Shown: one piece after another, positions 428-20,935 of the stretch | Layout of the letters: each line of letters opens with the position of its first letter | Numbering within the stretch: the first letter of the stretch is position 1 | Virus record (IMG/VR): IMGVR_UViG_3300023210_003947 | Location: 1 to 33,432 of that record | Source: a virus | Reading direction: 5' to 3' (one strand) | DNA length: 33,432 nucleotides | The notes under the pieces: generated by a model | The model's input: only the letters and a program-made list of their open reading frames with translations | Databases searched by the model: none | Told to the model about the DNA's origin: nothing | Program-made: the position numbers and the translations under genes

Positions 428-991
428 TTACACTTTAACTATGCTTATCGTTCCTTCTTTATGAAAATCATTATCGTAATAACCTTTTACCTCGATTGCA
501 TAAGCATAACTACCAATCGGTGCAGGTTTGCCACCATATGTGCCATCCCATTGATCTGATTGTTTATCTGTTTCAAATACTAATTGACCCCATCGGTTAT
601 AAATGATTAGATGGTAGTTTTTTACACCGATACCTAAGCCACCAAAAGTATCGTTCAAACCATCTTCGTTCGGTGTGAATGCATTCGGTACGTAAATATA
701 TAACGATGGTTTAACATCTATTGTATTCGAAACACTCACGATTTCATCATTTACTTTATTTATAGCAGTGACGCGATATTTAATATGTAAATCATCAAGA
801 CCCGGTATAGGATCTCCTGATTCTAATATCCTTGAGTTGTTTTCATTAATATCCATCAGCAATTCCCATGGATCTGGTTTATACCAAACGTCGTATACAT
901 TTATTGCTACTATACTAAGTAAAAGTATTGGTATTATAATTTGTCTAACGTTTCTAGGTAAGCTAAATTTTTTTAGTCTTTTTATAATCAT
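428..991 (-). CDS. Membrane-anchored or secreted protein with CHU_C / T9SS type B sorting domain
   Basis: The 187-residue protein has a basic N-terminus (MIIKRLKKF), one hydrophobic segment at about residues 18-36, a linker of about 65 residues, and a C-terminal domain from about residue 100. That domain carries the hallmarks of the gliding-motility-associated C-terminal domain (TIGR04131, CHU_C, type B): PNAFTPNEDGLNDTF, then YNRWGQLVFE, WDGTYGGKPAP and GSYAYAIE. In Bacteroidota such domains route proteins through the type IX secretion system to the cell surface or medium. The hydrophobic segment may be a signal peptide or a signal anchor. The start overlaps the stop of the upstream gene (988-1209) by four bases, so the two are probably co-translated. 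The domain call is strong. The role in a phage (surface masking, superinfection exclusion, adhesin) is unknown. Confidence 0.85.
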   Translation of the reverse strand: MIIKRLKKFSLPRNVRQIIIPILLLSIVAINVYDVWYKPDPWELLMDINENNSRILESGDPIPGLDDLHIKYRVTAINKVNDEIVSVSNTIDVKPSLYIYVPNAFTPNEDGLNDTFGGLGIGVKNYHLIIYNRWGQLVFETDKQSDQWDGTYGGKPAPIGSYAYAIEVKGYYDNDFHKEGTISIVKV

Positions 992-1209
992 GGTAAGTAT
1001 GGATTATCTGCTAGGTTTGAATATATGACTATACAGATAGCAATGATAACAGAGACAACAAATGCGGTTGACCACGCATGAAACCATTTATAATCTGATA
1101 TCATTTTATCTATAAGCTCTTTATCCTGCTTTTTATATAATTCGATTTGAGCATCTTTCTTTATACGCTCTTCTTTGAAATAGTTTTCATTATCTTTCTT
1201 AGACCTCAC
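988..1209 (-). CDS. Small membrane protein with C-terminal transmembrane helix
   Basis: This 73-residue protein appears to start at GTG (1209-1207); no ATG gives a better start. The first 45 residues are highly charged and probably helical (KKDNENYFKEERIKKDAQ). They are followed by one strong transmembrane segment (STAFVVSVIIAICIVIY) and a short polar tail. The tail-anchored design and four-base overlap with the CHU_C gene suggest a membrane partner for that protein. No family is recognised. Confidence 0.55.
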   Translation of the reverse strand: MRSKKDNENYFKEERIKKDAQIELYKKQDKELIDKMISDYKWFHAWSTAFVVSVIIAICIVIYSNLADNPYLP

Positions 1210-2228: not shown

Positions 2229-2429
2229 TTATCGTATATATTTAATATAAATAATCGTAATGAATATAACACTTGACCATACAATGAATATAATAAGTAC
2301 ATCAATGAAGCGTGAAATAGCGGCGATTAAGAATAATGAGCTAGAAAATAGAAGTACTTCTACTAAGTCTAATCTACGCAGTAAAATTTTAAAGAAAGCT
2401 ACCACTATTAACTGTTTTTTTACTAGCAT
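2229..2429 (-). CDS. Small membrane protein, two TM segments
   Basis: This 66-residue frame starts at ATG inside the last 41 bases of the sigma-factor gene. Two hydrophobic stretches are visible (VEVLLFSSSLFLIAAIS and VLIIFIVWSSVIFITIIYI), so a two-helix membrane protein is plausible. The overlap suggests coupling to the sigma factor, though the hydrophobicity of AT-rich DNA means a spurious frame cannot be ruled out. Confidence 0.35.
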   Translation of the reverse strand: MLVKKQLIVVAFFKILLRRLDLVEVLLFSSSLFLIAAISRFIDVLIIFIVWSSVIFITIIYIKYIR

Positions 2430-3297
2430 TAAATCTTAATTTCCGTATCGCTGACTTGTACCTACGCTGTATAGTGGCACTGCTCCTTCCTAGATCCGAT
2501 GCTATTTTTGAGAATGATTCTGGAATATCTGTATCAAATCCAAGTCTACGCTTAACTATTTCTCTATTGATGGGCGTAAGTTGATCCAAGTAAGATGCTA
2601 TTAATTTATTATAATCATCAGATTTAACAATATGATCTGCTCCATCTGGATCGCCATTAATTAAATTAACTGGTATAAAGTCACTGTCGTCAGATCCAGT
2701 TCCTTCCAAAGGAGATGCTTTTGTATTTGCTCGTATCGAGTCAACAATTGCCTGTTTCTTTTTAATTTCAACCGATGATGAAGTTAAAACCCCATCGTTA
2801 TCTTGTTCTAAATACGCTTCTATTAATTCATCTTCAGTTGGGTCGCGACCTAGGTCATTAGTTAATTCAGATTCAATATGATTCATCTTAGAAATAGAAG
2901 TTACTTTATTTTGAGGTAATCGTATTTGGCGAGAATGCTCAGATAGGTATAATAACATGTATTTTCTAATATTCCATACTGCATATGATATAAATCTAAA
3001 TCCAGTAGTGTAGTCAAATGCCCTAGCTGCATCTATTAATCCGGTATTTCCTTCGTTAATTAGATCTTGGAATTTAGAAGTACTCCCTCCTGAATATTGC
3101 TTAGCTACACTTATCACGAATCGAAGATTAGATGCAATTAATTTATTAATTGCGTCATTATCTCCCGTTGCTGTTAATTTAGTTACCTCAAGCTCTTCTG
3201 CTGGAGTTAATAATGGATATCTATTAACTTCTACCATGTATCTATCAATTCCACTTGAATTAGGTGTGTATCTTTCGGTAGGTCTAAAATCTCTCAT
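2389..3297 (-). CDS. Sigma-70 family RNA polymerase sigma factor
   Basis: The 302-residue protein has the layout of a group 1/2 sigma factor without region 1.1. Region 1.2-like sequence (DRYMVEVNRYPLLTPAEE) comes first. Region 2 follows, with the core-binding and -10-binding signature (LRFVISVAKQY, DLINEGNTGLIDAARAFD, FRFISYAVWNIRKYM, RQIRLP). A region 3 part (LGRDPTEDELIEAYL) comes next. Region 4 ends with a helix-turn-helix (SFSKIASDLGRSSATIQRRY). It resembles the Bacteroidota primary sigma factor more than T4 gp55. It presumably redirects host RNA polymerase to phage promoters; two recurrent promoter-like motifs in this window are candidate targets. The C-terminus ends with a short basic/serine tail. 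Confidence 0.93.
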   Translation of the reverse strand: MRDFRPTERYTPNSSGIDRYMVEVNRYPLLTPAEELEVTKLTATGDNDAINKLIASNLRFVISVAKQYSGGSTSKFQDLINEGNTGLIDAARAFDYTTGFRFISYAVWNIRKYMLLYLSEHSRQIRLPQNKVTSISKMNHIESELTNDLGRDPTEDELIEAYLEQDNDGVLTSSSVEIKKKQAIVDSIRANTKASPLEGTGSDDSDFIPVNLINGDPDGADHIVKSDDYNKLIASYLDQLTPINREIVKRRLGFDTDIPESFSKIASDLGRSSATIQRRYKSAIRKLRFNASKKTVNSGSFL

Positions 3298-3373: not shown

Positions 3374-4573
3374 ATGCAAGAAATATTTAATTTTAAGACA
3401 TGGAAAAATAGAGTATTTGAACAGGAAACTGTATATACTAAGGAATCTAAGTATGGCGTATATAATTTCGAGGGAGTATTTCCTGATAATATGATAACGC
3501 CAAAACCGGAAGTATACACAGATATAATTGATAAGATGAAATCTGATATAGAAAAGGCAATGGACGATGGTATGAAATTGTCAGAACTTAATATATCAAT
3601 AGAATCAAGTGCAAGTGCTCCCATGGCAACTACATGTCTTCCTAAGGACATAGAAGAAGCAGATCATAATTTCGGAGACGATACACTTAAAGATAAATGG
3701 GCACATTGTGATAGCAACACACGAAGCACACATAGAGTTGAAAATGGTAATAAATTTTTAGCTGAACATCGTGGACTTAAACTTAAGGAAGTATTAATTA
3801 ATGAGATTAATAATATGTTAAAGAGTAAGGATATATCAAATAAGATAACCGATGATATGGTAGAGCTTAGTTTCAAGGTTGCTACCGCAAAGGACCATGT
3901 TGGTGATGATAAAAACAGCGATGATAATCGATATGTAAGAGCAAAGATTGAGGGATTACTTAAATCTAAGAATGTAGAAAAGGAAACTAAGACCGGTCCA
4001 ACTTACCATTATTACATAGAGCTAAATCCAGATGATGGGGCTAAGGAAAGTAGAAAAACCGTTTGGAATTTTAAAGAAAATGGTAAATGGTATCATAAAG
4101 CTGCTTCAGAAAAAATATTCGGAGATGCGAGGAGGAACGCAAGTCCTTCTGAGTTTACTAATCATGATGCTAAAAAGGTGGCAGCGTCACGTGTTAAAGA
4201 TCGTAGCCATGTAGTTTATTCATCTGCTGAAAAAGCACCTGCTGCCGTTCCAAGGATAATTAAAGACCCAGTGGGTCCGACAGAAAAAGCTAACAATAAA
4301 ATAGCATGGAGTAATAGGTTTGGAGGATGGATAACATTTGTAGAAATTAAGAATTACAGTGCAGTAACAAAAGGTGGATCAGGAATCAGATGGTGGTATA
4401 AAGATAATGATGTATTCACAGCTGAGGTTAAAGCATTAAACGTATATCACGGATCCCAACCTATTGTAATAACCAACGATCAAAGTTTACAATGGGGAGC
4501 AGCTAGTATAGGTGGAGGCAAAGGAAAACGCAGTTACACTGTTCCATCCAGTACACCTAGACCTAGTATCTAA
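3374..4573 (+). CDS. Putative packaged internal protein (399 aa), unknown function
   Basis: The protein starts MQEIFNFKTWKNRVFEQE. This has the aromatic-x-x-aromatic pattern (F-K-T-W) followed by V-F-E, like the leader of T4 internal capsid proteins, which is cut by the prohead protease. The rest is soluble. A charged middle part precedes a C-terminal domain rich in aromatic residues and glycine (RFGGWITFVEIKNY, GIRWWYKDND) and ending in a Ser/Pro tail. I recognise no catalytic motif. It stands alone on the plus strand, preceded by a late-type promoter motif and converging with the minus-strand gene ending at 4574. The start is fixed by the promoter spacing and the leader. Confidence 0.7.
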   Translation: MQEIFNFKTWKNRVFEQETVYTKESKYGVYNFEGVFPDNMITPKPEVYTDIIDKMKSDIEKAMDDGMKLSELNISIESSASAPMATTCLPKDIEEADHNFGDDTLKDKWAHCDSNTRSTHRVENGNKFLAEHRGLKLKEVLINEINNMLKSKDISNKITDDMVELSFKVATAKDHVGDDKNSDDNRYVRAKIEGLLKSKNVEKETKTGPTYHYYIELNPDDGAKESRKTVWNFKENGKWYHKAASEKIFGDARRNASPSEFTNHDAKKVAASRVKDRSHVVYSSAEKAPAAVPRIIKDPVGPTEKANNKIAWSNRFGGWITFVEIKNYSAVTKGGSGIRWWYKDNDVFTAEVKALNVYHGSQPIVITNDQSLQWGAASIGGGKGKRSYTVPSSTPRPSI

Positions 4574-4785: not shown

Positions 4786-5292
4786 TTAGTAAAGTGCTAC
4801 ACTTGAATATGATATAATATCTGATTGTTTAAGATCATTGTATGATATTCTAAAGGTATTAAGTAATCCGTTACCGAATCCACCTTCTAATACTATTCCC
4901 ATTCCGCCCATAGTTGAGTTTGGTAATAATAATATATAATTATGTCCTGGTGAATCTTGCCAAATTTTAACTATAGTCTTAGCGTTTTTTAAGTAAGTAG
5001 ATCCTGCATTATATCCGGTATTACTAATACATTCTCCATGATATGGAGAATTAGTATCGTGTTTAAAATCGTGCTTTAGTTTCTCTGAATATTCTCGACA
5101 CTGAGAAGATAACGTGCTATCCCAAACGATTGGTGATTTTCCGCTATTAACTCTATACTTACTAATTTCTTCAATTACCAATTGCTCTAGGAACTCCATA
5201 TCTAGTGTTTTTATACGTAGAGTATCAGTTGGTTCTGTTGCGAACGTTGAAGTAGAAATAATAACTAAGATTGCGATAAGTAACTTTTTCAT
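4786..5292 (-). CDS. Secreted CAP (SCP/PR-1-like) domain protein
   Basis: The 168-residue protein has a clear Sec signal peptide (MKKLLIAILVIISTSTFA, likely cleavage after FA). A CAP-superfamily domain follows: I-x-K-Y-R near residue 43, IVWDSTLSSQCREYSEKL, the histidine followed by the HGE motif (SPYHGECISNTGY), and the signature IVKIWQDSPGHNYILL with a Gly-rich end (MGGMGIVLEGG). CAP proteins are extracytoplasmic; known activities include lipid or sterol binding and, in some members, proteolysis. Here it would act in the periplasm or outside. It is preceded by a TAGTATAATA-type promoter motif rather than the late type, suggesting expression before lysis. A role in host envelope alteration or superinfection control is possible but unproven. 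Confidence 0.85.
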   Translation of the reverse strand: MKKLLIAILVIISTSTFATEPTDTLRIKTLDMEFLEQLVIEEISKYRVNSGKSPIVWDSTLSSQCREYSEKLKHDFKHDTNSPYHGECISNTGYNAGSTYLKNAKTIVKIWQDSPGHNYILLLPNSTMGGMGIVLEGGFGNGLLNTFRISYNDLKQSDIISYSSVALY

Positions 5293-9523: not shown

Positions 9524-10180
9524 TTAATGTTTGTTTATTACTATAAATGCGCTTGACATCTCATCTTCTGTAATACTAAGATGTTTAATCGACCCTGCTT
9601 CTTTAGCGGATTTAAGCTCAGATGTAAATTCGTACCATTTATCTTCAGGTTCATCATTATCTGAAAAAGAATCTACATATATTGCATATATAGTATCTGT
9701 TAAATTTACAACTCCACTATGTAATGCAGTTAATAACTTAGCAAATAACCAAGATTCACCTTGGTAATATTGATTTTCTTCTGATGTTAATTCAGGATCT
9801 GAATTTATATGGTCAATCACTGGATCTAAATCACTAACCTTTTTACTTAATATAAACGACTCAATTGCATTTTTAAGTTCTGGGGTTTTATCAAAATCAT
9901 CTCCGTTAGTAATAATTGTATAGCTAATATGATCATAGTTGCGATTTACCTCTTTTAAAAAATCTAATATAGGCACCCCGTTTGTTCCATATGCATAATC
10001 ATCTAAATTATTTAATTCAGTAAGTGTACGTTTCGTATTTGGTCCTATTCCAAGTGTGTCTAATACTTCCTCGTCTCCATCATCTAAATCACTAAAATCG
10101 TATCCGCTAAGATCGATGTCATCTAACTCATCTGATTCGTTTAGTCGTTTCCATTCATTAAAGTTTTGTATCTTAATCAT
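9524..10180 (-). CDS. Putative packaged internal protein (218 aa), unknown function
   Basis: It begins MIKIQNFNEWKRLNESDE: aromatic-x-x-aromatic (F-N-E-W) followed by Leu-Asn-Glu, the leader pattern shared by many genes in the window. After the leader comes a very acidic stretch (DDIDLSGYDFSDLDDGDEEV), then a mixed domain without recognisable motifs. It is the last gene of the three-gene operon starting at 11415 and lies seven bases after the DUF192 gene. Function of the mature part is unknown. Confidence 0.65.
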   Translation of the reverse strand: MIKIQNFNEWKRLNESDELDDIDLSGYDFSDLDDGDEEVLDTLGIGPNTKRTLTELNNLDDYAYGTNGVPILDFLKEVNRNYDHISYTIITNGDDFDKTPELKNAIESFILSKKVSDLDPVIDHINSDPELTSEENQYYQGESWLFAKLLTALHSGVVNLTDTIYAIYVDSFSDNDEPEDKWYEFTSELKSAKEAGSIKHLSITEDEMSSAFIVINKH

Positions 10181-10187
10181 ATCTATT

Positions 10188-10622
10188 TTAAATTTTTAAT
10201 GTTATATTTGATCCATTTGTATTAGATTCTACCCATCCGGATTTTAATTCTACTGCGTACATCGCAGGTTTATCGCTTTTATAAATTTGAAGTTCTGAAT
10301 CTTGTTCTCCGTCGTATGGATCCATTGTATGGTGGTTGATATAATTAAATTTATCGTCAAAGAATATGATATCTAGTGCAAATGATACGTTTTTCATCCA
10401 GAATCCTAAATCATCTGGCATTTCATATACAAATAACATTCCATCGTTGTTAATGGGCTCATCTGATCCCATGTATCCTTTTGCTTTTGTATCTTCATTA
10501 GCTGCCACTTTTAGTGTAACCTTGGTTCCTGAAATAGTAGCAACTATTTCTTTACTATCTATTGCGTTTTTCCTACAGTATCCTTCGAATAATGGAAAAT
10601 GTGTCGTTCTTTTATGTTGCAT
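10188..10622 (-). CDS. DUF192 family protein with leader
   Basis: The 144-residue protein carries a DUF192 (PF02643) domain from about residue 25 to the end. Visible features are KGYMGSDEPINNDGMLFVYE, FWMKNVSFALDIIFFDD and YAVELKSGWVE, which match the family's GMLF.F, FWMKNT..PLD..F and AVLEL..G blocks. The biochemical role of DUF192 is not established. Bacterial members are usually exported, but this one has no signal peptide. Instead it starts MQHKRTTHFPLFEGYC, where Leu-Phe-Glu could be a prohead-protease site, so it may be a packaged protein. It overlaps the upstream gene by 11 bases. Confidence 0.8.
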   Translation of the reverse strand: MQHKRTTHFPLFEGYCRKNAIDSKEIVATISGTKVTLKVAANEDTKAKGYMGSDEPINNDGMLFVYEMPDDLGFWMKNVSFALDIIFFDDKFNYINHHTMDPYDGEQDSELQIYKSDKPAMYAVELKSGWVESNTNGSNITLKI

Positions 10623-11415
10623 AATCTATAAATCTCTCGATGTTGACGAAGTATGGCGCACGTTCGATATATTTTTTTGGATCAGGAAGTCTTGATTTAT
10701 CAATCAATTTTACGAAATTCCATGCACTGTTAGATCCAATAGCTCCCTTATCAATTAGCAGTTGCTCAGGATCACTATCAATTCCCATAAGGTCTTTCAT
10801 ATCATCTCCCATATCAATAGATGGAACTTTATAATATTTGTTATCAGCATCAGATACCTTCCCGTCTTCGGAGTCATATGAATAATATACAACATGTGCT
10901 ATACTGTAATCTTCATTCGGATCAATTCCTTCTTGTTTTCTAATATTATCAGGAGAACCTAACATCATTCGAAGTGCACTTTCCTGTATATAATCTTCTT
11001 TAGATAATCCAGATGATTCTATTTCTATATTCAAGGCATCTGCGTCCTTTTGTGCTTTTAAATTCATTGCATCCTTCCACTCTTGATTCTTTATTCGACG
11101 AGCTTCTTCCTCTTGTCTGACTTCAACTAATGTTTTTACATCTATATCATATTCAGTCATTATTTCAAAATGTGAACCATGTTCATCAGTCTGAGCGGTC
11201 ATACCATATTGATAAGTATCATCTTCTCCGCGTACTGATACTTCTTTTACGTACGGAGGATCTACCCAGTCTTCATATGATCCATCCTCTTCTACTTCAA
11301 TTGTAACCTCTTTCCCGTTAGGGTTTATAAGTTTAACGGTATGATCAGACACGCTAATAATTTTGACCTCACTTAGTGCCTCATTTATTCGTCTGATATA
11401 CTTAAGAGTTTTCAT
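10612..11415 (-). CDS. Putative packaged internal protein (267 aa), unknown function
   Basis: It begins MKTLKYIRRINEALSE, which is strikingly close in form to the T4 capsid-targeting sequence (MKTYQEFIAEA), with Ile-Asn-Glu as the predicted cut. The next part is beta-rich (VKLINPNGKEVTIEVEEDG). A charged helix follows (VRQEEEARRIKNQEWKDAM), then an acidic C-terminal domain. No known motif is seen. It is the first gene of a late-type operon with the DUF192 gene and the 9524-10180 gene. Confidence 0.65.
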   Translation of the reverse strand: MKTLKYIRRINEALSEVKIISVSDHTVKLINPNGKEVTIEVEEDGSYEDWVDPPYVKEVSVRGEDDTYQYGMTAQTDEHGSHFEIMTEYDIDVKTLVEVRQEEEARRIKNQEWKDAMNLKAQKDADALNIEIESSGLSKEDYIQESALRMMLGSPDNIRKQEGIDPNEDYSIAHVVYYSYDSEDGKVSDADNKYYKVPSIDMGDDMKDLMGIDSDPEQLLIDKGAIGSNSAWNFVKLIDKSRLPDPKKYIERAPYFVNIERFIDYAT

Positions 11416-11496: not shown

Positions 11497-11832
11497 TTAT
11501 GCTTCTTCAACATCAGCCTCTTCTTGATCAGCTACTTCTTCACCTTCTTCACCTTCTTCACCTTCTTGGTCCGGCTCCTGGTCTGGCTCTAATGCTGATA
11601 ATCTTTCTTCAAGATCATCAATCATTGCCTTAAGATCGTCCATTGTTACTTCTTCTTCTTCTTCAACATCTTGATCAGAAAATTCCCCCTGATCAGAAAC
11701 TTCTTCTTGGTCAGCTTGGTCAGCCATTTCTGGATTTGCTCCTGAACTCATTCCTTCTTGGTCGTCTTGGAATTGCTCGTTTAATTTTCCTGATTTAGAT
11801 GACATAAATCCTTTAAAATCTTTTACTTTCAT
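11497..11832 (-). CDS. Acidic leader-bearing protein, prohead-core-like (111 aa)
   Basis: It starts MKVKDFKGFMSSKSGKLNEQ: F-K-G-F, then Leu-Asn-Glu. The rest is extremely acidic and low in complexity, with repeated DQ, EE and GEE units (DQEPDQEGEEGEEGEE) and one helix (MDDLKAMIDDLEERLSALE). Size and charge recall T4 gp67/gp68 and the internal peptides cut from core proteins, so a prohead core or DNA-condensation role is likely, though acidic tracts alone do not prove homology. It is a single-gene unit with the full late-type promoter motif and its own terminator. Confidence 0.7.
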   Translation of the reverse strand: MKVKDFKGFMSSKSGKLNEQFQDDQEGMSSGANPEMADQADQEEVSDQGEFSDQDVEEEEEVTMDDLKAMIDDLEERLSALEPDQEPDQEGEEGEEGEEVADQEEADVEEA

Positions 11833-12472: not shown

Positions 12473-14083
12473 TTATGCCATTAAATCAGATCCTCCCATT
12501 TTGGCAAGAACTCTATTAGCGTGATTTGCTCGTTTATTGAGAGCAGCCTCTGATCTATCATGCGGCTGTTCATATTGATTTAGAATAACATGAGTCGCTG
12601 ATTTAACATCAGTAGATTTACGTAAATTATTCAAAGCTCCCTTATGTGTAGTTTTTAATTCATGAGCTAGAAAACTATATGCAATATCATCATTTGCAGG
12701 TTGAACTGTTAAATCAACTCCAAATTTAGATTTAGCATGGTTCTTAAGTGATATCTGTCTAGAATCATGAGTCCACTGTGACCAGCTATATCCAGTCTTA
12801 CCGTCAATTACAAGCGGTTTTACTACTGATCCTGGTTTATGTTGAACTCTAGCTGGATAAAATCCACTCTCTTCCCATAAGTTTCCTGCAAAACCTGCTG
12901 CTTGTTCTTTAGTTAATGAGAAGTCTGCAATTAACTTGGTCGCAATTTGGGCTCCCTTAGTTGCTTTCTGATCCTCTGATGAATTACCCGGTAGAACATT
13001 GAATGCACCTGTACTTTTAATAGTTTTCTTAGTAGAGGGAACCGTAATAAAGTCCTTAGTTTTCTTACTTGAAATAGGTTTTCCCTGTTCAGCAAGCTTA
13101 AATAATCTAGCATATATATTTCCAATATCAGTTCCGGTAATATCATTACCATCCTCAATTATTCTGTCGTCATCCGTCTTTCTAATACTTCCTATTAAAT
13201 CTCGTCTCTTACTATATAAATCAAATTTATGTTCAGACTTGTTATATTTAGCAATCTTAGTTATCCTTTGATCTTTATATCTTATTCTATAATACTTCCT
13301 GTGTTTAATACTACTACGACTCTTAAGTTTAGATTTAGACTTAACTTTAGTTTCGGCTTTAGTTTCGGCTTCTTTCTGCTGAGCAATCGCTTCTCCATCC
13401 CATTCTTCTCTAATTGGTCCGATATACCTAAATGCAGCAGTTTTCTGAGGATTGTTTTTTTCGATATTTTTCCAAGTACTTAACTTGTAGTTCATTTCTA
13501 TTTGTCCTGTATTATCCGAGCTTGGTGGCATTCCGTTTGATGAATTCGATATTATCTTACCGTTATCAACTATGATTCCAGTATGACCGTGGCCATGACC
13601 GGGATTAGTCGCAGTTAATATAACATCACCGGGTTTAGAAGAGGTTTTCCAATCTCTAATCATTTGCCAATTCTTTTTGTCCGAGGATAAATGATCCCAT
13701 AGCGTTGCCGTTCCTAATTGAATTATTGGTTTTCCAGGTATAATTGGATATCCAGTTGCTCGATAGAACATTAATGATAGTGCTGCCACACATCCTAATC
13801 CTCCTGGCTTTGGTTCTGATTTACCTGCTTTTCTTTGTGCTGCAGTTATCGTACCGGTTGCATTTTTAATAGATCTAGTTGGAACGTTTATATTAGCATA
13901 TGCCGATTTAGTAAGATCTCCAATCGGCCCCTTCTTAGGAGATGCGAGCGGTAAGTGATCGTCTTTATTGTCTATTCCTAAGGATCCTCCAAATGTTTCT
14001 ACATCCGCAGGTACTGCCTCTTCGATGGCGTTATGTGCCATTTTGCTATTATTTAGCCAACTATCAAACGAATCTATTTCCAT
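12473..14083 (-). CDS. Two-domain peptidoglycan hydrolase (NlpC/CHAP-like plus phage lysozyme domain) with leader
   Basis: The 536-residue protein starts MEIDSFDSWLNNSKMAHNAI followed by EEAV, giving F-D-S-W and a possible Ile-Glu-Glu cut. Residues about 90-185 look like a papain-fold peptidase of the NlpC/P60 or CHAP type: Cys98 at a helix start (GGLGCVAALSLMFYRATG), the PGDVIL turn, then GHGHTGIIVDNGKIISNSS with the candidate histidine at 167. A basic, Lys/Ser/Arg-rich linker (about 236-300) follows. Residues about 388-520 match the phage tail lysozyme domain (Phage_lysozyme2, PF18013): LTKEQAAGFAGNLWEESGF with the candidate catalytic Glu405, GYSWSQWTHDSRQISL, and a repeated-helix end. It should cut both peptide and glycan bonds of the cell wall. 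The leader suggests it is carried in the virion rather than acting only as an endolysin. Confidence 0.85.
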   Translation of the reverse strand: MEIDSFDSWLNNSKMAHNAIEEAVPADVETFGGSLGIDNKDDHLPLASPKKGPIGDLTKSAYANINVPTRSIKNATGTITAAQRKAGKSEPKPGGLGCVAALSLMFYRATGYPIIPGKPIIQLGTATLWDHLSSDKKNWQMIRDWKTSSKPGDVILTATNPGHGHGHTGIIVDNGKIISNSSNGMPPSSDNTGQIEMNYKLSTWKNIEKNNPQKTAAFRYIGPIREEWDGEAIAQQKEAETKAETKVKSKSKLKSRSSIKHRKYYRIRYKDQRITKIAKYNKSEHKFDLYSKRRDLIGSIRKTDDDRIIEDGNDITGTDIGNIYARLFKLAEQGKPISSKKTKDFITVPSTKKTIKSTGAFNVLPGNSSEDQKATKGAQIATKLIADFSLTKEQAAGFAGNLWEESGFYPARVQHKPGSVVKPLVIDGKTGYSWSQWTHDSRQISLKNHAKSKFGVDLTVQPANDDIAYSFLAHELKTTHKGALNNLRKSTDVKSATHVILNQYEQPHDRSEAALNKRANHANRVLAKMGGSDLMA

Positions 14084-14085
14084 AC

Positions 14086-14099
14086 TAATATTATTTATC
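14086..14099 (-). promoter_or_regulatory. Late-type promoter motif for peptidoglycan hydrolase gene
   Basis: The minus strand reads GATAAATAATATTA, just before the ATG and overlapping the 3' end of the NUDIX gene. Confidence 0.45.
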
Positions 14100-14565
14100 T
14101 TACTCGATCTAGTATTATCAACTGTGATTTATGTATCTTAGGATACGCATCTTCGATTTTTACAAAACCTGCCCAATCTATTTCCTCTAGTTGTAATTTC
14201 TCTTTATCTATTTTATGACCTATCATTCCTATGTCAGAAGGATCGTCTATTCTCATAATGAAGTATATCATTTGGGAATCAATCGAGCCATCTTTTTTGA
14301 AACGAGGTACAGTGTGTGGCTCTGAATCTAGCTTCGACGGGTCCACCTCTATTCCGGTTTCCTCGAATACTTCGCGAATTGCTGCGTCTAACGGATCTTC
14401 TCCTACTTTGATTCCTCCTTTTGGAATTCCAAGTGCACTATGTTGCCAACTTGCGTTAGTTGGGTGAACTAGTAAAAGCTTACCGTCCCATACAAATGCG
14501 ATACCTGCTACATTTTTGGTATCCTCTGATTCATTTATAAATTTATTGAAATTCTTGACCTTCAT
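14095..14565 (-). CDS. NUDIX hydrolase with capsid-targeting-like leader
   Basis: The 156-residue enzyme has an exact NUDIX box, G-x5-E-x7-REVFEETGI, within residues about 46-75 (GGIKVGEDPLDAA then IREVFEETGIEV). The preceding strands (VAGIAFVWDGKLLLVHP) fit the fold. NUDIX enzymes hydrolyse nucleoside-diphosphate-linked compounds (NTPs, ADP-ribose, NAD, capped RNA); the substrate here is not evident. It begins MKVKNFNKFINESEDTK: F-N-K-F then Ile-Asn-Glu, an especially clear copy of the shared leader, so it may be packaged and injected. The start overlaps the bS21 gene by 23 bases, so expression is coupled to bS21 and the ATP-grasp-like gene. Confidence 0.92.
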   Translation of the reverse strand: MKVKNFNKFINESEDTKNVAGIAFVWDGKLLLVHPTNASWQHSALGIPKGGIKVGEDPLDAAIREVFEETGIEVDPSKLDSEPHTVPRFKKDGSIDSQMIYFIMRIDDPSDIGMIGHKIDKEKLQLEEIDWAGFVKIEDAYPKIHKSQLIILDRVR

Positions 14566-15651: not shown

Positions 15652-16680
15652 ATGGTTAATTCATTTAAAACTTGGAGCTCAGTAAACGAAAGACACGGGT
15701 CTACCGGAGGTAGAGAACATATCTGGGTAAAGGGTAAAAAGATCAATATTGTGTATAAGGTTCAAAATAAGGCACAATTCATGATGAAAATTGTACATTC
15801 AGTAGTTGATCAAATCGATGACAACAAAGGAACTCTTACCTCACTAGGAGCAAGTTCAATACTTAATTACGTAAACGCATCACTTGGATTAGTTCAAACG
15901 TTCGGTAAAATGGATACAGCTTTCTTTGGTAAAAAAGTATTAGTTTATAAAATACTAAAGGACACATCTAGAACTCAGAAATATCAGTTTACAGTTACAG
16001 ACAGAACATTGATCGCAGGATTAGATCCTAATACTGAATTTATTTCAACCGCTCAATTATCGAATGCTAAGGGAGACGAGATAAAAGGGGTAATAACGGA
16101 CACGGAGGGAAAAGTAAAAACCGATGATACTGCGGAGAATCCAACCGATGCAATTAATTTAGAAACAGGTGACGGTGAAGGAACTGCAATTACTATCAGA
16201 CAGGCAGGTGATAGGTTCAGATATAAGATGAGATCAAATGAGAAATTATACTTATGTCAATTTACAGAAAACGAAGGAGCAATTGATTGTAACGTTATAT
16301 CCGGAGGTAGAAAACCAAGTGGAACAGTTTCCTGGAAAGTTAATATACCGATATGGATTACAGATGAGGATAACAGCGGAACTACAAGCACTGAACCACT
16401 ATATACTGATACTGAGATATTAGACCCAACTGACAAGAAATTCTTTACTAGAATGTTTACCGATGATGATTATTTAAATAAGATAATCAGTGAATATAAG
16501 GACAAGTATGGATCAAGCGAATTAAACGGCGAAAATCTTAAGAACATGTTATATTATAACGGAACAGAGGATAAAATATTTCCGTCTGAAGTGGAAGACG
16601 AAGGGGAAGAAACCGCAGATGCTGGAACAGTTGGAACGGCCGGAACAGTTGGAAGAACTAAGAAAATGTGGGATAGGTAA
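15652..16680 (+). CDS. Putative packaged internal protein (342 aa), unknown function
   Basis: It starts MVNSFKTWSSVNERHGS: F-K-T-W then Val-Asn-Glu, almost the same leader core as the 3374 gene. The next region is helical (QFMMKIVHSVVDQIDDNKG), then beta-rich (YQFTVTDRTLIAG, RFRYKMRSNEKLYLCQF). The C-terminus is an acidic, Gly/Thr-rich low-complexity tail (DAGTVGTAGTVGRTK). No catalytic motif is recognised. It is the first gene of a two-gene plus-strand operon driven by the divergent late-type motif. Confidence 0.7.
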   Translation: MVNSFKTWSSVNERHGSTGGREHIWVKGKKINIVYKVQNKAQFMMKIVHSVVDQIDDNKGTLTSLGASSILNYVNASLGLVQTFGKMDTAFFGKKVLVYKILKDTSRTQKYQFTVTDRTLIAGLDPNTEFISTAQLSNAKGDEIKGVITDTEGKVKTDDTAENPTDAINLETGDGEGTAITIRQAGDRFRYKMRSNEKLYLCQFTENEGAIDCNVISGGRKPSGTVSWKVNIPIWITDEDNSGTTSTEPLYTDTEILDPTDKKFFTRMFTDDDYLNKIISEYKDKYGSSELNGENLKNMLYYNGTEDKIFPSEVEDEGEETADAGTVGTAGTVGRTKKMWDR

Positions 16681-20510: not shown

Positions 20511-20580
20511 ATAAAGGACTTTCACCTTTCCTGATTAGCTGTAACCCACTAATCTTATTTGATCATTCAATCAAACCGTG

Positions 20581-20935
20581 TGGAGACGGAGGGACTCGAA
20601 CCCTCGTCCATTAAACATCGACAATAGATTTTATTACAGCATAGGATAATCGTTTTCTAACAATTCCAAAATAGAGAGTTCCCTTATTACTGTTCGGTTT
20701 ACTCATAACTAATCTTCAGGTTTTCAATTTCACGCGTGAGAAATAGAAATACTAACTAAACTGTTACTTCCTTTTACATCTAATCAACCTACAAGTATAC
20801 TCAGTTACATGATGTGCACTACTTACCTATTAGGCAGCCATTGCGTACTCAGCGTTGTCGGCTAAGATTGATGTAGGTCATCACCCGTTGCTGAATCTAA
20901 AGCTTCTCGAATAATGTCAAAGCCATGTCATCCCC
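20581..20935 (-). ncRNA. ssrA: Transfer-messenger RNA (tmRNA)
   Basis: Read on the minus strand, the RNA begins GGGGATGACATGGCTTTGAC and ends with a T-arm (GAGGG-TTCGAGT-CCCTC) and CGTCTCCA. The 5' GGGGATG pairs with the 3' CGTCTCC as the acceptor stem (two G-U pairs); CCA is not encoded. Bases after the 5' end pair with those before the T-arm (TTTAGATT with AATCTATT, CATTA with TAATG), forming the long tmRNA helix 2. The tag frame reads GCC GAC AAC GCT GAG TAC GCA ATG GCT GCC TAA TAG, encoding ADNAEYAMAA, a typical degradation tag ending. At about 355 nt the length is normal. It would rescue ribosomes stalled on broken mRNAs, using host SmpB. Upstream, TAGTATA lies about 30 bases before the 5' end and may be its promoter; the transcript is likely trimmed. 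Confidence 0.94.

Follow-up and report, generated by a model that had tools for sequence, protein, structure and literature searches.

The type IX secretion system (T9SS) occurs in Bacteroidota and is the main route by which adhesins and enzymes are placed on their surface. In Flavobacterium johnsoniae, the type B substrates of this system (e.g. SprB and Fjoh_3952; TIGR04131) are known or predicted adhesins, and in 9 of 12 cases a shuttle gene lies adjacent (PMC12618676). Type B C-terminal domains (CTDs) suffice for T9SS secretion and targeting but require a shuttle of the PorP/SprF family; one shuttle sometimes serves several substrates, and orphan host substrates rely on a shuttle encoded elsewhere (PMC12618676). 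The working type B signal spans 150–235 aa, exceeding the CHU_C domain itself, and the conserved motifs A–E within the last 100 residues are required for secretion (PMC12618676). At the cell surface, type B proteins are kept by PorP-like proteins (PMC9143113). Flavobacterial gliding and T9SS mutations confer phage resistance, with SprB and RemA as possible receptors (PMC13288928; PMC7345892).

Here we analysed a virus record of 33,432 bases (the window), which encodes a protein with the same C-terminal sorting domain as the F. johnsoniae type B substrates, including its conserved core, and likewise a putative N-terminal export segment. Unlike these substrates, it measures only 187 aa, and neither an adhesin part nor a neighbouring shuttle gene is present. 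The features of the locus are as follows:

428–991, minus strand: CHU_C protein gene (187 aa, ATG start), the final gene of a compact minus-strand run
431–694, minus strand: type B T9SS sorting domain (CHU_C/TIGR04131), residues 100–187, from profile matches and model
704–784, minus strand: beta-hairpin region, residues ~70–96 (YRVTAINK...SVSNTIDV), model strands 70–80 and 83–93
890–940, minus strand: N-terminal hydrophobic segment, residues ~18–34 by hydropathy, helix 13–29 in the model
988–1209, minus strand: 73-aa protein with a C-terminal transmembrane segment, start/stop overlap with the CHU_C gene (ATGA)
2389–3297, minus strand: sigma-70-like factor (profile matches), heading the compact gene run that ends in the CHU_C gene

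An earlier note on this DNA had claimed that the protein bears a type B sorting domain but no catalytic region, and both claims are borne out by profile searches. TIGR04131 matches the protein with 60.9 bits (E 9.8e-17, residues 100–170; curated cut-off 35) and PF13585 (CHU_C) with 68.9 bits (E 4.1e-19; curated cut-off 27), scores that lie far beyond chance level; a further score for the sorting domain over residues 100–187 amounts to 70.4 bits. The domain runs up to the C-terminus and keeps all nine invariant columns (P102, N103, F105, P107, D110, N113, G135, W148 and G150) defined on an alignment of 60 phage and bacterial CHU_C C-termini, with motif blocks at 102, 130, 148, 160 and 180. It is the sole domain found in the Pfam and NCBIfam profile search, which detected no second domain, be it a catalytic or a binding passenger. 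PHROGs yielded no meaningful family, and the only sequence match in the PDB is the C-terminal domain of Aureispira GhpA (9flp; E 6e-11, residues 90–168). Taken together, the protein consists of a membrane-targeting start and a complete C-terminal type B sorting domain, joined by a short linker that holds the hairpin, and little else. Recognition of this domain by the T9SS is likely.

The AlphaFold2 model is confident over residues ~98–187 (pLDDT mostly >90), with residues 29–65, following the N-terminal helix, poorly ordered and of low confidence. The hairpin is possibly what remains of the Ig/Fn3-like domain found in front of CHU_C in cellular proteins; a complete Ig domain ahead of CHU_C is absent from the model. 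A PDB fold search with the model returned nothing at E <0.001. The VIA fold list contains T9SS sorting domains (PorU 6za2, Z 7.4; NucA-bound T9SS complex 8glk_D, Z 7.1; PorZ 5m11, Z 7.0) together with unrelated Ig folds that score equally high or higher. The VIA list supports an Ig-like sandwich and nothing beyond. Virions commonly bear Ig-like folds, and the resemblance of the model to many of them could also be read as that of a decoration or fibre part within the particle. We consider a virion protein very improbable, however, as the product carries a putative N-terminal export segment and has T9SS sorting domains as its nearest sequence relatives, and its gene closes a sigma-factor-headed run of small genes, not beside structural genes.

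As for the signal or anchor segment that the earlier note had proposed, a single N-terminal hydrophobic segment is indeed present, but it may be either a cleavable signal peptide or a membrane anchor, the start showing no clear, canonical cleavage site. Cleavage would give a surface product, whereas an uncleaved N-terminus would give a decoy tethered to the inner membrane, whose periplasmic sorting domain would jam the translocon or trap shuttles from inside. The missing site, the long and strongly basic n-region (18 residues, charge +6) and the long hydrophobic core all argue for tethering: hydropathy reaches 3.12 over 12 residues and 2.17 over 19, the latter compared with 1.1–1.9 in those other short phage proteins that were tested. 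In the model, the disordered residues 29–65 could serve as the tether. However, the n-region is shorter in the full-length relative described below (L001), which has a possible SNA|F cleavage site, and most other short phage CHU_C members appear to be cleaved; we therefore regard a tethered decoy as improbable.

Apart from this locus, the window encodes a phage tail lysozyme domain, an ATP-dependent ligase, a T4-like beta-glucosyltransferase and a tmRNA. The ligase is nearest to that of Cellulophaga phage phi4:1 (48.6%), and a large protein is similar to one in Flavobacterium phage MaF61 and in huge uncultured phages. Because of the CHU_C domain and these similarities to phi4:1 and MaF61, the host is likely a member of the Bacteroidota. 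The tmRNA gene is complete (20578–20935, minus strand; Rfam RF00023, 68.6 bits) and encodes the tag DNAEYAMAA. A small CAP-domain protein (4786–5292, minus strand; PF00188, 44.2 bits) has a likely signal peptide, MKKLLIAILVIISTSTFA, and is probably a second exported phage protein. Furthermore, many window proteins, including a Nudix hydrolase, carry similar N-terminal tags (MIKIQNFNEWKRLNES, MKVKNFNKFINES, MQEIFNFKTWKNRVFEQE, MVNSFKTWSSVNER):

9524–10180, 10612–11415, 11497–11832, 12473–14083 and 14095–14565, minus strand: tag-bearing open reading frames
3374–4573 and 15652–16680, plus strand: tag-bearing open reading frames

The shared tag presumably recalls the capsid-targeting sequence of T4 internal proteins, and by this analogy the tagged proteins may possibly be packaged and injected.

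The 73-aa gene lies upstream of the CHU_C gene and overlaps it by 4 nt; its product has one hydrophobic segment, close to the C-terminus. The supposed coupling of the CHU_C gene to a small membrane protein therefore stands within the window, but it is not conserved. The sole full-length relative of the CHU_C protein in viral_contigs, L001, is encoded on a 241,918-base contig, where a weak relative of the 73-aa protein (42% over 62 aa) is found ~6 kb away in a different gene run. As it is not adjacent to the CHU_C gene there, the 73-aa protein was rejected as a conserved partner.

L001 is 63% identical to the window protein, including the stretch ahead of CHU_C. Two further small proteins of the window have short matches on its contig, which shows no detectable match to the window ligase or to the 676-aa window protein; the two phages are apparently unrelated. 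Differences between the two CHU_C genes amount to 0.28, 0.15 and 0.53 at the first, second and third codon positions. Since third positions dominate and dN is 0.26 against a saturated dS of ~2.6, the comparison indicates that the gene is under purifying selection. The lack of relatives of two large window proteins in the L001 phage suggests that the gene is retained on its own merit, and it looks to be an accessory gene that moves independently. When the full-length protein was aligned against genome_contigs, no relative emerged, and plasmids gave partial matches only, none covering >80% of the query. The CHU_C domain alone has cellular matches of just 37–57%, scattered across Bacteroidota. 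With neither a full-length cellular relative nor closer domain matches, no named cellular donor could be assigned. The sequence resembles the tail end of a cellular CHU_C protein, which might point to an inert fragment, i.e. the end of a host gene that was recently captured and is drifting. This explanation is already disfavoured and, in our view, very improbable, given that the protein is conserved end to end and under purifying selection in two phages without apparent relationship, and that short forms recur with several origins.

This recurrence was found in a viral survey with a degenerate DNA pattern for PNAFTPNxDxxND, which yielded 71 stretches in viral_contigs. Of 45 closed phage CHU_C frames (median 240 aa) left after removal of redundancy at 90%, 23 measure ≤250 aa, compared with 5 of the best-listed 150 cellular matches in ten Bacteroidota genomes (median 808 aa). 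The size of this contrast (odds ratio 30, P 4e-13) is only rough because the two samples were collected by different routes, cellular frames were measured between stop codons, and short genes are the rule in phages. The short phage set comprises at least four kinds: proteins of ~190 aa with a signal peptide, one Ig/PKD domain and CHU_C; proteins of 107–108 aa with a signal peptide and CHU_C, and nothing more; proteins of 240 aa; and the pair formed by the window protein and L001. In a domain tree, which has few columns and many open forks, the short viral form requires 9 changes, of which supported branches force no fewer than 4, and the window protein groups with L001 only (100/100), with close cellular kin absent. 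Judged from this tree, the short form had several origins in phages, and the repeated origin of such label-only proteins suggests that phages act on the T9SS route. Many of the surveyed viral records are fragments, and terminase genes are present in 10 of 31. A PorP/SprF gene, likewise rejected as a conserved partner, is lacking in the 33-kb window, in the 242-kb relative and in 30 of 31 phage records tried. The exception is contig L162 (3039–4639), where the gene directly downstream of a short CHU_C gene encodes the phage's own PorP/SprF shuttle (PF11751, 251 bits). The survey also contained a phage CHU_C family of ~300–340 aa whose members have a signal peptide and a long N-terminal part without assignment (18 loci, many on contigs <25 kb, e.g. 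L104, L108, L118, L121, L124, L126, L139 and L142).

Elsewhere in phages, the ~190-aa CHU_C gene occurs in a cassette, often with overlaps of 1–4 nt, alongside one or two Ig/PKD proteins that have a signal peptide but lack CHU_C:

L113 3051–5592, L117 276–2624, L128 449–2725, L116 5292–7620: CHU_C cassette loci
L170 4769–7107, L168 18–1662, L169 920–2644, L115 10348–12063: CHU_C cassette loci

The Ig/PKD partners share a short C-terminal tail (..ISHD, ..ISHN, ..IQHY, ..IQHF) on otherwise unrelated domains, and this tail is retained despite the insertion of an extra domain (L113 versus L117). It is found in ~29 of 121 signal-peptide open reading frames of the viral CHU_C loci (duplicates counted) but in none of 76 in cellular CHU_C loci, and may represent an undescribed C-terminal signal for assembly or sorting. 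The pairing itself, found in many phages, resembles a split multi-domain surface protein and would fit a part in surface assembly: the CHU_C protein would be exported and anchored by its CHU_C domain, and its value would be physical (a coat, a scaffold or a receptor shield on the infected cell) instead of lying in competition for the route. However, an Ig/PKD partner was seen neither in the window nor in the 40 kb around the L001 relative, the modelled window protein has no complete Ig domain before CHU_C, and the 107-aa phage forms have nothing to display. A surface part is thus rather unlikely for the window protein, though it carries appreciable weight.

We tentatively prefer, with somewhat less than even confidence, the reading that the window protein is a cargo-free substrate of the host T9SS, which would most likely occupy shuttles or translocons and lower adhesin display. 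Beyond the hydrophobic segment the protein has ~150–155 aa, about the length of a working type B signal with nothing attached, which favours shuttle capture and occupation of the route. Sec would export the protein to the periplasm, where its CHU_C domain would be recognised by the host translocon and a host shuttle of the PorP/SprF family. The protein would then reach, or stall at, the outer-membrane site that normally serves host type B adhesins and, carrying no cargo, tie up shuttles or translocons. An occupied route would mean less display of gliding adhesins, the putative phage receptors, and fewer receptors would reduce superinfection and the loss of progeny to already infected cells. 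As pairs of type B CTDs and shuttles are specific, the domain encoded by the phage may fit a single shuttle, or none at all. The roles suggested at the outset, i.e. display on or jamming of the T9SS, altered gliding or a block to superinfection, would be compatible with published T9SS biology and with the repeated occurrence of cargo-free CHU_C proteins among phages. A more far-reaching version, which we find doubtful, is that phages have repeatedly reduced type B adhesins to the bare sorting signal, an inhibitor that saturates PorP/SprF shuttles or the translocon and switches off adhesin display and gliding in infected cells. If true, saturation of shuttles or translocons would amount to a phage-encoded inhibitor of type IX secretion; in the literature searched, we found no description of a phage factor acting on the T9SS. 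Natural cargo-free sorting domains would be direct test pieces for a block of adhesin display, for the shuttle that is bound and for the smallest functional type B signal.

Compared with known systems, the Cryophage T9SS cargo proteins (PMC7468147) are likewise phage-encoded and have a T9SS sorting domain; there, however, a type A domain is fused to enzymes or a PA14 domain, whereas the window protein has a type B domain without cargo. Cluster 2 of the crAss-BACON proteins (PMC6949934) also places a sorting domain in Bacteroidota phage genomes, but with BACON carbohydrate-binding repeats near structural genes, neither of which applies to the window protein. Aureispira GhpA (9flp), the grappling-hook protein whose C-terminal domain matches, is a cellular protein of 5898 aa. 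Also similar are the phage proteins A0A6J5L8Z9 (199 aa) and A0A6J5NJX2 (187 aa), named 'Gliding motility-associated, C-terminal domain' in BFVD, and A0A8D9CF28 (108 aa), which are short, have the same fold and are 29–30% identical; their names are automatic, and we found no described function for them. Phage-encoded T9SS substrates are thus already known, and what is new is the recurrent, cargo-free type B form.
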